From Acidocella sp. (GTDB lineage: Bacteria; Pseudomonadota; Alphaproteobacteria; Acetobacterales; Acetobacteraceae), in contig JARLIK010000001.1 in assembly GCA_031291755.1 (NCBI GenBank), positions 62,001 to 126,000 on the forward strand: a stretch of DNA of 64,000 nt, in the 5' to 3' direction. Position 1 is the stretch's first letter. The number at the start of each line of letters is the position of its first letter. This document shows positions 44,145 to 48,071 of this stretch, in pieces. The translations under genes were made by a program, and so were the position numbers. The notes under the pieces are model-generated. The model did not search any database and was not told where the DNA came from. It worked only from the letters and a program-made list of their open reading frames with translations.

Positions 44145-45622
44145 TACTGCGTGTTATTTTAGGTGACCAGCTATCAACTAATATCGCCGCCCTGGCCAGG
44201 CTAGATGTATCGCGCGATGTGGTGCTGATGGCGGAGGTGATGGGTGAATGCACCTATGTGCCGCATCATCCACAAAAAATTGCCTTGGTGATTTCGGCCA
44301 TGCGGCATTTTGCCGCTGCCCTGCAGGTGCGTGGTGTGCGCTTACGCTATATCAAGCTGGATGATCCGCTGAACACCCAAACATTGGATGGAGAATTATT
44401 GCGAGCGGTGCAGGAGTTACGACCGGAGGCGGTGGTGACAACGGCACCTGGCGAGTGGCGGGTTTTGCAGGCCATGCAAGGCTGGGAAGCGCTAACCGGC
44501 GTGGCCGTGGAAATTCGTGATGATCAGCGGTTTTTGGCGTCCCAGGTGTTTTTTCAAGATTGGGCCGCCGGGAAATCCAGCCTGCGGATGGAGTATTTTT
44601 ATCGTAAGATGCGCCAGGCTACGGGTATATTGATGGATGGCGCGGAACCGGCGGGCGGTAATTGGAATTATGACTCCGAAAATCGCAAAAAACTGCCGAA
44701 AAATGTAAAGCCACCTAGGCCAAAACGCTTTCCGCCCGATGCCATGACTCAAGAAGTGCTTGCCCTGGTCGGCGATAAATTCGCTCATCATTATGGCAGT
44801 CTGGCAGCGTTTGACTATCCGGTGACCAGCCATGAGGCGCTGGCCGGGTTTGAAGATTTTATCGAACATCGTTTGAGCGGGTTTGGTGACTGGCAGGATG
44901 CGATGGCGGCCGGCGAGCCTACGATGTTTCATAGCCTGGTTTCGGCACCGTTGAACTTGGGGTTGTTGGACCCGCTGGCATTATGTCAAGAAACTGAGAC
45001 GGCGTTCCGGGCCGGGCGGGTGCCGTTGAATGCGGCTGAGGGATTTATCAGGCAAATTCTGGGTTGGAGAGAATTTGTGCGCGGTATTTATTGGTTGCGA
45101 ATGCCGCATTACGCCAGCTTGAACAGCCTGAAAGCCACTGCGCCCTTGCCGGATTTCTATTGGACCGGTGCCACCAAAATGCGTTGTATGAGCGAAGCTA
45201 TCAACCAGACCATGAGATATGCTTATGCACATCATATCCAGCGTTTGATGATTACGGGCAATTTTGCACTGCTCGCCGGGCTGCATCCGGATGGCGTGGA
45301 TGAGTGGTACCTGGCGGTGTATGCCGACGCTTATGAGTGGGTTGAACTGCCAAATACCCGCGGCATGGCTTTACATGCTGATGGCGGCATTGTGGGCTCG
45401 AAGCCTTATGCTGCCTCGGGGGCTTATATCAACAAGATGAGCAATTACTGCGGCAGCTGCCATTATGATGTAAACGATGCAACCGGGGCACACGGTTGCC
45501 CGTTTAATGCGCTTTATTGGGATTTTATCGGACGCCACGCTGAACGCTTTGCGCAGAACCCTCGCATGGCGATGCCGGTACGGAGTTTGGCGAACATGGC
45601 ACCTAATAAAGTCAGTGGGTAA
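44141..45622 (+). CDS. Fe-S bacterial photolyase/cryptochrome (FeS-BCP, PhrB-like), 3' end altered by IS
   Basis: A 493-aa FAD photolyase-related protein; relatives repair (6-4) photoproducts or sense light. The four [4Fe-4S] ligands are in place: C349, C437, C440 and C453, with the C-x2-C in CGSCHYD. The GTG start overlaps the DUF6134 gene by 4 nt. The present stop TAA lies inside the left terminal repeat of the IS1595 element. Joining the flanks at the target duplication extends the frame 20 codons beyond KVS, ending at an ATGA overlap with the SDR gene. So the IS removed the last helix; activity may or may not survive. Confidence 0.9.
   Translation: MILRVILGDQLSTNIAALARLDVSRDVVLMAEVMGECTYVPHHPQKIALVISAMRHFAAALQVRGVRLRYIKLDDPLNTQTLDGELLRAVQELRPEAVVTTAPGEWRVLQAMQGWEALTGVAVEIRDDQRFLASQVFFQDWAAGKSSLRMEYFYRKMRQATGILMDGAEPAGGNWNYDSENRKKLPKNVKPPRPKRFPPDAMTQEVLALVGDKFAHHYGSLAAFDYPVTSHEALAGFEDFIEHRLSGFGDWQDAMAAGEPTMFHSLVSAPLNLGLLDPLALCQETETAFRAGRVPLNAAEGFIRQILGWREFVRGIYWLRMPHYASLNSLKATAPLPDFYWTGATKMRCMSEAINQTMRYAYAHHIQRLMITGNFALLAGLHPDGVDEWYLAVYADAYEWVELPNTRGMALHADGGIVGSKPYAASGAYINKMSNYCGSCHYDVNDATGAHGCPFNALYWDFIGRHAERFAQNPRMAMPVRSLANMAPNKVSG
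45609..45617. repeat. target-site duplication, left copy
   Basis: AAGTCAGTG, identical to 48063-48071 immediately after the right inverted repeat. Confidence 0.88.
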
Positions 45623-45640
45623 TAATATACTTGACTCAGT
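45618..45640. repeat. left terminal inverted repeat of the IS
   Basis: 23 bp beginning GGTAATAATATAC, exact reverse complement of 48040-48062. It contains the photolyase's current stop codon (45620-45622) and the -35 element of the transposase promoter. Confidence 0.95.
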
Positions 45641-45660
45641 AGGTGCTCTTGGGGTATAAA
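45631..45660 (+). promoter_or_regulatory. transposase promoter partly inside the left terminal repeat
   Basis: TTGACT at 45631-45636 and TATAAA at 45655-45660 with an 18-bp spacer. The predicted transcription start falls at about 45667, the transposase ATG itself, so the message would be leaderless or nearly so. Confidence 0.65.
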
Positions 45661-45666
45661 ATCCTT

Positions 45667-46626
45667 ATGAGCACAGAACCTCAAACTCTCGTTGAAGCCG
45701 TTCGCCACTTCGCCGACCCGGAAGTGACGCACAATACCATGGTAGGGCTTCGCTGGCCGTCCGGCGTTCATTGCCCGACCTGTGGCCGCACGGACGTGCG
45801 CTTCATCGCTACCCGCCGCATGTGGGAATGCAAGGAAAAGCACCCCAAGAAGCAGTTTTCGTCCAAGGTTGGTACCATTTTCGAGGATAGCCCGCTTTCC
45901 CTCGACAAGTGGTTTGTGGCCATTTGGCAGATTGCGAACTGCAAGAACGCGATTAGCTCTTACGAGTTGTCCCGCGCCATTGGTGTTACGCAAAAGACGG
46001 CGTGGTTCATGCTTCATCGTATCCGGCTAGCCATGCAGACCGGCGCTTTCATCAAGAGCGGTGGCGAGTTTGAAGCGGACGAAACCTTTATCGGCGGCCG
46101 TGCCAAGAACATGTCCGCTGCCCGTCGCGCCAAATCTATTCCTGGCAGTGGCGTTGCTGGCAAGCAGGTTGTTATGGGTGTGCTGAAACGTGGCACCGAG
46201 GCCGAACCCAGCAAGGCGGTTGCGGCTCATGTCATCAACCGTAAGAAGGCCACCGTCCAGGCTGCCGTCCGGGCTGTAGCGGAACCCGGCGCCGCGCTCT
46301 ACACCGACGCTCTGCGTTCCTATACCGATCTGGCTTCTGATTACATCCACGAAGTGGTTGACCATGCGGTTGAGTATGTTCGCGATCACGTCCACACGAA
46401 CGGCATGGAGAATTTCTGGTCCCTATTCAAACGTGCCCTAAAAGGCACCTACGTGTCGGTTGAGCCGTTCCATTTGGATGCCTATGTGAAGGAGCAGACC
46501 TTCCGCTTCAACGAGCGTAAGGACAACGACAATGGTCGCTTCCGCAAGGTGCTCGGTGCAGTTTCCGGTAAGGGGCTTACCTACAAGGAGTTGAAGGGCG
46601 ATGTCCGTTTCGCGGCCCCCACATGA
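45667..46626 (+). CDS. IS1595-family transposase
   Basis: A 319-aa transposase. The N-terminal zinc ribbon has CPTC (with RMWECKEKH) and the C-terminal ISXO2-like catalytic domain shows EADETFIGG, then LYTDALRSY, and the HTNGMENFWSLFKR segment with the conserved Asn/Glu of this family. I start at ATG 45667; an in-frame GTG at 45643 would lie upstream of the predicted transcription start. The family's usual SVEPFHL block is also present. It has no frameshift or stop, so it may be active. Confidence 0.93.
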   Translation: MSTEPQTLVEAVRHFADPEVTHNTMVGLRWPSGVHCPTCGRTDVRFIATRRMWECKEKHPKKQFSSKVGTIFEDSPLSLDKWFVAIWQIANCKNAISSYELSRAIGVTQKTAWFMLHRIRLAMQTGAFIKSGGEFEADETFIGGRAKNMSAARRAKSIPGSGVAGKQVVMGVLKRGTEAEPSKAVAAHVINRKKATVQAAVRAVAEPGAALYTDALRSYTDLASDYIHEVVDHAVEYVRDHVHTNGMENFWSLFKRALKGTYVSVEPFHLDAYVKEQTFRFNERKDNDNGRFRKVLGAVSGKGLTYKELKGDVRFAAPT

Positions 46627-46795
46627 AAAGCAAGACAGTACCGAGGGTGCCACAGTAGACAAACCGATGGATCGGTTCCGGCGCTTGGCGAGACACGTCA
46701 TCAATGCACTTCCGGAAGAAGTGGACGCGGAACGCAAAAAGTACGAGACTGAAAATGCGTTAAAAAACAAGCCTGAGAGTGGGAATAATGACTGA
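46601..46795 (+). CDS. small accessory protein of the IS1595 element
   Basis: A 64-aa, highly charged protein (MDRFRRLARHVINALPEEVDAE within it). Its ATG overlaps the transposase end by 26 nt. Small proteins with an FDRF...VPxxE-like core commonly follow IS1595 transposases, as I recall, and may modulate transposition. No function is proven. The last 8 nt overlap the next gene. Confidence 0.72.
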   Translation: MSVSRPPHEKQDSTEGATVDKPMDRFRRLARHVINALPEEVDAERKKYETENALKNKPESGNND

Positions 46796-47060
46796 TTCAG
46801 CGGCTAAACGAGCTAAAATGATCCTCCCGAACGGGGTGGAAGTCGAGGGCGCGGAGGTTCAGACGGTTGAATCAACTGAGCGCTGGAGCGAATTTACGCT
46901 TGATGACGGCACCGTTCTCCGGCTGAAGATGATGATAGCATCCTTCATTAGAGCGGACGGGCAGTATGACCAAGACGGCAACCCGGTCTATGCTGTAAAG
47001 GGCGCGCCCCAAATAACGTTTTTAAGCGTTCCTCAACAATATAAGCGGAAAACCCAATGA
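46788..47060 (+). CDS. small beta-rich passenger protein of the IS1595 element
   Basis: A 90-aa protein (MTDSAAKRAKMILPNGVEVEG), with likely small beta-barrel strands: WSEFTLDDGTVLRLKM, DQDGNPVYAVKG. I chose ATG 46788 (GAGAGTGGG upstream) over GTG 46779. I recall comparable short proteins next to other IS1595 transposases but know no function. The 3' end overlaps the next gene start by 4 nt. Confidence 0.7.
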   Translation: MTDSAAKRAKMILPNGVEVEGAEVQTVESTERWSEFTLDDGTVLRLKMMIASFIRADGQYDQDGNPVYAVKGAPQITFLSVPQQYKRKTQ

Positions 47061-47581
47061 TGGTACACGCTATTCCAGTACAATCCCTTCAAAGGAAGGT
47101 CATGTATCCAATAAGCCCTAGCCAACGAGCGTTTACGGCCGTTGTGTGGTTAGGAACCTGCGCAATGATTGCGACTGAAGTTGCAAATGCATTGCCATCA
47201 ACTGATTATTATCAAGTTGGCCCGGCTTTGTCGGCGCTACCGTGTGTGGAAGCTACCCACGCAGTAACGCAAGACTTTGTCGATATTAATCCATTGATTT
47301 TCAAAAAAAATGTCGATGAATGGAAAAAGAAAAGCCTCGCGATGTCGTCGATTACCGAGATGGCGATGCTGCCTGCATACCAAAGAATAATCGGGATGGG
47401 ACAATCAGCAATACCACTGCTTTTGGCGCAGTTGCGTTCTGAGGGAAATCAACCAGATATGTGGTTTTGGGCGCTTCAGGCTATCACCGGCGTTGACCCA
47501 GTGGGCAGTGAACATGCTGGCGACATGGTAGCAATGGCGACCGCTTGGCTCGACTGGGGCACTCGAAATAATGTGTCCTAG
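47057..47581 (+). CDS. passenger protein A: helical protein, unknown function
   Basis: A 174-aa protein if started at ATG 47057; ATG 47102 has a better ribosome-binding site (AGGAAGG) and gives 159 aa. The N-terminal segment RAFTAVVWLGTCAMIATEVANA is hydrophobic and could be a signal or anchor with an A-N-A cleavage site (shown as 20 or fewer: TAVVWLGTCAMIATEVANA). The C-terminal half is helical, HEAT-like: MLPAYQRIIGMGQSAIPLLL, then MWFWALQAITGVDPV and MATAWLDWG. It overlaps passenger B by 11 nt, so the two are coupled. It is strongly AT-rich compared with neighbours. Confidence 0.68.
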   Translation: MMVHAIPVQSLQRKVMYPISPSQRAFTAVVWLGTCAMIATEVANALPSTDYYQVGPALSALPCVEATHAVTQDFVDINPLIFKKNVDEWKKKSLAMSSITEMAMLPAYQRIIGMGQSAIPLLLAQLRSEGNQPDMWFWALQAITGVDPVGSEHAGDMVAMATAWLDWGTRNNVS

Positions 47582-48044
47582 TGTCGACCCGACTGATTTT
47601 CCCAACTTAATTGCCGGAAACCATAAAGACACAAGTCCACTCGACAATAGGTACAACTGCATCGCGTACGCAGCTGACGTTGATTCAAAGTGGTGGTGGC
47701 CGGACGCGATGAACCGAGGATATTGGCCACCCAATGTAACGCGCAAAGAGACTTTAGACGCTTTTATTGAGGCGTATGGAACCAATGGCTATGTTGTTTG
47801 TTCGGATGATTCCGTAGAACAAGGCTTCGAGAAAGTTGCCATATACGCGAAAGGGCCGCAGCAAGATCAGCCGACGCACGCAGCCAGACAACTACCTAAC
47901 GGTAAATGGACGAGTAAGCTTGGGAAGGCGGAAGACATAGAGCATGACACCCCCGCTGGTGTTGAGGGGCCGGGATATGGGCGAGCGGTTATTTTCATGA
48001 AACGGCCCACCCCAAAACCCGCAATGCAAACTCCACAAGACTGA
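47571..48044 (+). CDS. passenger protein B: Cys/His-containing protein (resembles DUF7689)
   Basis: A 157-aa protein with a conserved-looking core: YNCIAYAADVDSKWWWP, then TRKETLDAFIEAYGTNGY, PTHAARQLPNGKWTSKLG and EDIEHD. The single Cys in NCIAYA followed by His in THAAR and DIEH is reminiscent of papain-like or NlpC/P60 hydrolase layouts; that is inference. I recall similar sequences under DUF7689 next to passenger-A-like helical proteins in several bacteria, but could not search. The ATG 47571 lies inside the passenger A gene (11-nt overlap). Confidence 0.7.
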   Translation: MCPSVDPTDFPNLIAGNHKDTSPLDNRYNCIAYAADVDSKWWWPDAMNRGYWPPNVTRKETLDAFIEAYGTNGYVVCSDDSVEQGFEKVAIYAKGPQQDQPTHAARQLPNGKWTSKLGKAEDIEHDTPAGVEGPGYGRAVIFMKRPTPKPAMQTPQD

Positions 48045-48062
48045 GTCAAGTATATTATTACC
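48040..48062. repeat. right terminal inverted repeat of the IS
   Basis: 23 bp ending GTATATTATTACC, perfect reverse complement of 45618-45640. The passenger B stop is at 48042-48044, inside the repeat. Confidence 0.95.
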
Positions 48063-48071
48063 AAGTCAGTG
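48063..48071. repeat. target-site duplication, right copy
   Basis: AAGTCAGTG, same as 45609-45617. The rest of the original photolyase 3' end (about 48071-48133) follows it. Confidence 0.88.

Follow-up and report, generated by a model that had tools for sequence, protein, structure and literature searches.

The window (the whole stretch of 64,000 nucleotides that was analysed) contains a complete IS1595 element at positions 45618–48062, with a transposase, inverted ends and a direct repeat. The 23-bp terminal inverted repeats form an exact pair, the left one at 45618–45640 on the plus strand (GGTAATAATATACTTGACTCAGT) and the right one at 48040–48062 on the minus strand, and two such matches were reached in none of 100 shuffles. 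The sequence aagtcagtg, in direct reading, flanks the element on both sides (45609–45617 and 48063–48071); 8 or 9 of these 9 nt constitute the target-site duplication. The plus-strand gene at 45667–46626 encodes an ISXO2-like transposase of 319 aa, which scored over the curated cut-offs in Pfam (PF12762, DDE_Tnp_IS1595, E 4e-37; PF12760, E 2e-9) and NCBIfam (NF033547, transpos_IS1595, E 1e-51). Hence the element has both the DDE transposase of the IS1595/ISXO2 type and the inverted repeats with a target duplication, in agreement with the first-pass annotation, which had described it as an otherwise typical IS1595 element. It is present in one copy in the host assembly (2.59 Mb, 84% complete). 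Among plasmid-borne sequences, the host's ribonucleotide reductase is closest to those of Acetobacter (76% identity), in line with an alphaproteobacterial host. A photolyase-like ORF upstream has its stop codon (45620–45622) within the left inverted repeat, and the stop codon of the last gene of the element, B (48040–48044 region), lies within the right one.

Five genes overlap in a single run on the plus strand: the transposase, orf2 (46601–46795, 64 aa), orf3 (46788–47060, 90 aa, no family match; gene X below), gene A (47057–47581, 174 aa) and gene B (47571–48044, 157 aa), with consecutive overlaps of 26, 8, 4 (ATGA) and 11 nt. The cargo had initially been described as two genes; A and B with their 11-nt overlap stand, while the third gene, orf3, had been overlooked. 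The extra genes are indeed more AT-rich than the host, as originally claimed: the GC content is 0.488 for A, the lowest of the genes, and 0.513 for B, compared to 0.571 for the transposase and 0.591 for the window, placing A at the 0.6th and B at the 3.5th percentile among equal-length pieces. The small ORFs orf2 (0.513) and orf3 (0.516) are AT-rich to the same degree as B. A simple promoter scan yielded three candidates versus 2.4 expected, none of them above chance, hence co-transcription of the cargo with the transposase is plausible; an Rfam scan found no RNA.

The small gene orf2 has no Pfam or NCBIfam family and no phmmer match in L132–L161; its weak match to a type I specificity model (PADLOC, E 0.014) was set aside. 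By eye, L161 and L170 have small ORFs of comparable make-up next to an IS1595 end or transposase, and orf2 is probably an IS1595-associated protein, that is, a part of the element and not cargo.

Genes A and B and their relatives

Gene B is a clear member of DUF7689 (Pfam PF24738; E 1.1e-41, 142.7 bits against a gathering cut-off of 22.6), so the kinship suggested in the first-pass annotation was borne out by the HMM search; no other family was found in Pfam or NCBIfam. The motifs NCIAYA, THAAR and DIEH are all there, and nine residues are invariant in all 24 aligned sequences (N29, C30, A32, H103, S115, K116, G118, H125, G137), including the Cys and both His of these motifs. Such conservation is what a Cys-His enzyme would show, with C30 and H103 as the candidate catalytic residues. 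By eye, the layout resembles that of the CHAP and NlpC/P60 enzymes, as the Cys of NCIA[WY]A is followed by a likely strand and then by THAARQ, and in the divergent member L010 the stretch PGDIVLY stands right before the His.

The suggestion of a papain- or NlpC-like hydrolase thus retains the invariant Cys and His residues but gains no sequence-level homology. DUF7689 was the sole common family in a Pfam scan of the 24 members, with no NlpC/P60 or CHAP match, and a profile search of the PDB gave no credible relative among solved structures. A comparison by hhalign with CHAP and NlpC (16 of 20 CHAP rows and three of six NLPC rows taken) produced no match either, but had no power, as the positive control, CHAP against NLPC, failed too. 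Compared to the CHAP and NlpC/P60 hydrolases, B shares the Cys in an NC-x-A-[WY] motif and a later His, but has neither a family or profile match nor a signal or hydrophobic segment (the best 19-residue mean hydropathy is 0.33). In the literature available, thin on subscription journals, we found no paper on DUF7689 or on TIGR04255, a family considered below; our description of the X-A-B layout, and of A as the partner of PF24738, is sequence-based.

Gene A consists of a variable N-terminal extension of 88 residues and a conserved core of about 85 residues, with the consensus PAYQ-IIGMG-A-PLIL-EL-PDHWFWAL-AITG-PV ... AWL-WG and with F82, W89, S97, A139, L140, W164 and W167 invariant in 19 aligned sequences. 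It has no match in PADLOC, Pfam or NCBIfam, chance-level matches only in PHROGs and no credible relative among solved structures, and 19 scanned members of the group have no family in common. The idea that A may be membrane-anchored or secreted is not supported: its N-terminus has a hydrophobic stretch with a mean hydropathy of 1.59 over the best 19 residues, but none of the 26 relatives measured exceeds 1.29. Two unusual architectures were observed: in L035 (1465–2208) the core is fused to a C-terminal domain without known kin, and no B adjoins it; in L052 a minus-strand frame of 477 aa contains the core together with a sequence that by eye is type I restriction specificity (HsdS)-like.

A check of whether the two genes co-occur outside IS1595, proposed in the first-pass annotation, gave no refutation of the pair. 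Of the 42 distinct places with B (repeats removed), 36 have an A-like gene next to it, and these represent three phyla and viral contigs. In 35 of these loci A precedes B, and in the remaining one, L058, a weak A match (E 8e-7) follows it. A is missing from six B places, namely L010, L019, the near-identical L020 and L021, the broken L048 and the weak L054; A without B was found in L022 and L023, which are near copies, and in L035. The distances in the A and B trees are correlated (r = 0.585, 24 loci), a value reached in none of 2000 permutations.

The distribution of the pair is sporadic. B relatives came from genome contigs (five loci) and viral contigs (11 loci), and a search in 147 relatives of the host found B in two genomes, one being the host itself. 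PF24738 is present in 11 of 294 Planctomycetota genomes (17 places) and in four of 145 Omnitrophota genomes (four places), starting genomes included, and A stands beside B in 19 of these 21 places. A was found in three of 398 genomes of the host phylum Pseudomonadota, host included; further searches yielded 11 places in the five genomes of L004–L008 and two viral contigs. In total, eight viral contigs carry the A-B pair. We found no plasmid relatives of A, B or orf3, and no B relatives in phage records. In the surroundings of the module in L176, L011, L027, L004 and L032 there was neither a related transposase nor an inverted end within six mismatches. The pair is thus mobile as well as widespread and sporadic, and has IS1595 as one of several vehicles. 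By eye, a Rep-like gene and an integrase lie near the module in L176, the region around L025. In L051, a TIGR04255 fragment (819–971, E 7e-6) stands before A-B and B is broken by a stop, so this looks like a decaying module.

The gene preceding A

Relatives of orf3 directly precede A-B in L011, L012 and L025. A search with three orf3 sequences retrieved two of 299 genomes of the phylum, the host and the genome of L025, in both of which orf3 adjoins A-B; among viral contigs it retrieved only those of L011 and L012, both part of the query. Thus, orf3 adjoins A-B in all four places where it is known.

More generally, we observed an X gene before A in 16 of the 36 A-B loci, and these genes fall into four families without detectable kinship: the orf3 family (the window, L011, L012, L025), TIGR04255 (L006, L038, L040, L041, L049, L056, L057), a family of 125 residues (L014, L015 and L047, the latter matching at E 1e-25 from outside the profile) and a family of about 230 residues (L013 and L039, 24% identical). 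The X gene of L006 is assigned to TIGR04255 by NCBIfam (E 1e-37), and a TIGR04255 profile built from 20 rows outside A-B loci recovered all seven X genes at E 1e-46 to 2e-61 together with the fragment of L051, which is excluded from the X count; a 27-row profile gave the same seven genes and the same fragment. No full X was recognised by the four profiles in the other 20 loci.

Where the junction between X and A was measured (n = 11), the genes overlap by 4 nt in nine cases (the window, L006, L038, L039, L040, L041, L049, L056, L057), abut in one and are 2 nt apart in one. The X types are clustered on the B tree, requiring 8 changes versus a shuffled mean of 13.0, with none of 200 shuffles as low. 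No SecB kinship of the X families was found: there was no Pfam match over the cut-off and, for TIGR04255, none among solved structures. The hhalign comparison of X with SecB (11 of 19 SecB rows kept) also gave no match, but it had no power, the CHAP-NLPC positive control having failed too. The X protein of L013 matched Pfam EAD1 (E 0.008) below the cut-off, and this match was set aside.

The extension of A tends to be longer in the presence of X. Its median length is 61 residues in 15 loci with X, at least 47 in all of them, and 49 in 19 loci without X (range 13–113); a rank test gives p = 0.002, or 0.005 without the two B-less A genes, the rows being related and the start codons partly guessed. 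These 34 loci omit L012 (frame break), L051 (partial X), L052 (fusion) and L058 (divergent); in L047 the anchor column is I, not W, and L025 was counted from the second residue. A smaller set of 27 loci gave p = 0.0004. The X-free loci also include long extensions of 69–113 residues.

We found TIGR04255 at 21 places in 20 of 249 genomes from the host phylum, as well as in three plasmids and two viral contigs. For 23 of these 26 loci (L070, L075 and L076 omitted) we considered 37 nearby downstream proteins, some of them about 540 nt away. Pfam assigned four of them: a PemK toxin, a zeta toxin that also matches AAA_33, a HEPN protein and an HTH_3 protein. The other 33 have no family; altogether, 34 of the 37 match no toxin family. 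Among the family-less neighbours there are recurring partner groups of seven and six proteins, one of three and four of two. Thus, in three clear cases, those with PemK, zeta and HEPN neighbours, the X slot belongs to toxin-type operons, and TIGR04255 appears as if it were a general helper of toxin modules, although this toxin link of the slot is guilt by association and not proof. Similarly to these operons, TIGR04255 precedes A-B in seven distinct loci and, as a fragment, in L051, whereas the window has orf3 at that place. TIGR04255 was also seen as the first gene in many sets of two or three genes, the partners being diverse (L059–L061, L063–L083, L174, L175). One of the partner groups of two, near TIGR04255 in L064 (243–944, minus strand) and L065 (2756–3400), consists of related proteins that by eye appear to be permuted papain-like, with the His before the Cys.

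A possible helper-dependent module and its alternatives

Coupled genes on mobile elements had been said at the outset to be often toxin-antitoxin or anti-phage modules. The toxin-antitoxin reading gains support because TIGR04255, which fills the slot before A in other loci, is also the first gene of operons encoding PemK, zeta and HEPN proteins; at the same time, neither A nor B belongs to a described toxin or antitoxin family, B being only DUF7689. PADLOC gave no match for A, B or the tested X genes. Built like a toxin with an antidote and an exchangeable helper, the module may represent a so far undescribed system of self-poisoning or of defence against phages.

The reading that we favour, tentatively and with somewhat less than even confidence, is a helper-dependent toxin-antitoxin module X-A-B with a papain-like toxin, acting as TAC (toxin-antitoxin-chaperone) modules do but in the reverse gene order. 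We infer the roles, the enzyme fold and the trigger as follows. B would be a cytoplasmic toxin, probably a papain- or CHAP-like enzyme using Cys30 and His103, and A its antitoxin, the conserved core of which would bind B. The variable N-terminal extension of A may make it dependent on the first gene, X, whose product (orf3, TIGR04255 or a member of either of the two other families) would serve as an exchangeable helper stabilising or folding A. If X were drawn away, by stress or by phage proteins, A would be degraded and B freed. Its vehicles would be IS1595 in the present host and, in other loci, phages or integrative elements.

The gene order in TAC modules is toxin, antitoxin, chaperone. 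Modules of this kind, such as HigBA1-SecB of M. tuberculosis and CmdTAC of E. coli, resemble the one considered here in having three coupled genes (16 of the 36 A-B loci considered here include the third) and a toxin plus an antitoxin, both proposed in our case, the latter with a sequence-variable extension that may here be tied to the third protein; here the set lies on mobile DNA. According to PMC5105189, the TAC chaperone is SecB-like, and a short extension of the antitoxin, differing in sequence between systems, imposes the need for it; the extension can be moved between systems, and it acted similarly when placed N-terminally on two unrelated proteins. In CmdTAC, as described in PMC11618068, the chaperone is drawn away by newly made capsid protein of the phage, which leaves the antitoxin to degradation by ClpP and the toxin free to act. 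On the other hand, the order X-A-B is the reverse of that in TAC, the extension of A is N-terminal rather than C-terminal, X has no SecB similarity at the sequence level, and B has no match to a nuclease or an ADP-ribosyltransferase family. As the fit is imperfect, given the long extensions in X-free loci and X without a sequence link to SecB, the module may be said to work like TAC, not to be TAC.

Instead of depending on X, A could be the antitoxin and B the toxin of a plain two-gene pair, the gene before A being an unrelated regulator or hitch-hiker. This would agree with A-B being the constant part and with the 20 of 36 loci lacking a full recognised X, but we consider it rather unlikely in view of the 4-nt X/A overlap at nine of the 11 junctions, the clustering of the X types on the B tree (8 changes versus 13) and the recurrence of TIGR04255 in front of other pairs, of which three include a known toxin family. 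The presence of known toxins at the corresponding position after TIGR04255 in three loci argues against the roles being reversed or there being no toxin-antitoxin system at all. B would then be a Cys-dependent modifying enzyme or protease and A its substrate or adaptor, for example, as a regulated effector that is activated on infection instead of being neutralised; we find this improbable, even though B is the enzyme-like partner, and A is found lacking B (L022, L023, L035) or as part of a longer frame (that of L035 and, by eye, the one with the HsdS-like sequence in L052).

Several viral copies of A-B lie, by eye, among lysis- and tail-like ORFs, which would suit a phage function as well. 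A phage accessory role in lysis or superinfection exclusion, with B as a wall-cleaving hydrolase acquired later by other mobile elements, would be consistent with the eight viral contigs, in several of which the pair is surrounded by holin-, tail- and terminase-like ORFs, and with the CHAP/NlpC-like arrangement of Cys and His seen by eye. Nevertheless, B has no hydrophobic stretch, A accompanies it in 19 of the 21 Planctomycetota and Omnitrophota places (prophage status aside), and the TIGR04255 link points elsewhere, making such a role very unlikely.

If the helper-dependent module is real, both DUF7689 and TIGR04255, which have no assigned function, would acquire one, a Cys-His enzyme would join the toxin repertoire, and helper-dependent antitoxins would extend beyond SecB and beyond C-terminal tails. 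That the first gene can be exchanged suggests a single toxin pair fitted with different triggers. In this case simple insertion sequences of the IS1595 type would also be worth searching as carriers of defence genes.

IS1595 elements as cargo vehicles

IS1595 elements reportedly carrying passenger genes have been described by Siguier and colleagues. The element in the window is similar to them in its transposase, inverted ends, 8–9 bp repeat and passenger DNA, and differs in that the cargo is X-A-B, arranged in one overlapping run with the transposase and orf2. Our literature search on IS1595 together with toxin-antitoxin systems or passengers retrieved nothing on point, and the portion of PMC7371123 that could be consulted contains nothing on IS1595 cargo.

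Within the class, 31 of 337 genomes, the host among them, have relatives of the transposase. For nine of the 28 transposase loci with enough flank (one per genome), we observed an inverted repeat with a score of at least 16, exceeding all 15 shuffles, at 893–1470 bp past the transposase (L135, L136, L140, L146, L150, L152, L155, L158, L160). Thus, extra DNA is common in the IS1595 family.

Window-type ends were found at 11 loci in viral contigs, seven of which have no related transposase and probably are chance matches. In L161 (11338–12601), an exact window-type end is followed by a RelA_SpoT gene (E 1e-14), which matches the PADLOC defence candidate PDC-S33 (E 1e-111), and by a small IS1595-type ORF; the contig stops before the second end. 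L165 (4747–7533) is an IS1595 element whose ends have 2 and 5 mismatches of 23, with a cargo of a DUF3800 gene (E 1e-4) and a 153-residue protein that looks membrane-bound. L170 (11524–14424) has a transposase and one end (3 mismatches), the second end not being found, and the Fic (E 4e-15) and HNH genes past the transposase are candidates for placement inside the element. L167 retains one end and a partial transposase.

On a broader reading, X-A-B would be one branch of a large class of toxin-antitoxin systems, so far undescribed, in which the helper comes first; self-poisoning and defence genes of this sort would be carried between bacteria by an IS1595 lineage sharing one kind of ends. The class would comprise unrelated non-SecB helpers (TIGR04255, the orf3 type and the two other families) guarding antitoxins with exchangeable N-terminal tails against many toxins, with DUF7689 as a new papain-like toxin family; we regard this reading as doubtful.

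By eye, BRO/DinD-, KilA-N-, methylase-, GIY-YIG- and Cas2/VapD-like genes lie past the transposase in L132, L140, L147, L153 and L158; in just two of these five loci, L140 and L158, the gene is followed by an inverted repeat that exceeds the shuffles.
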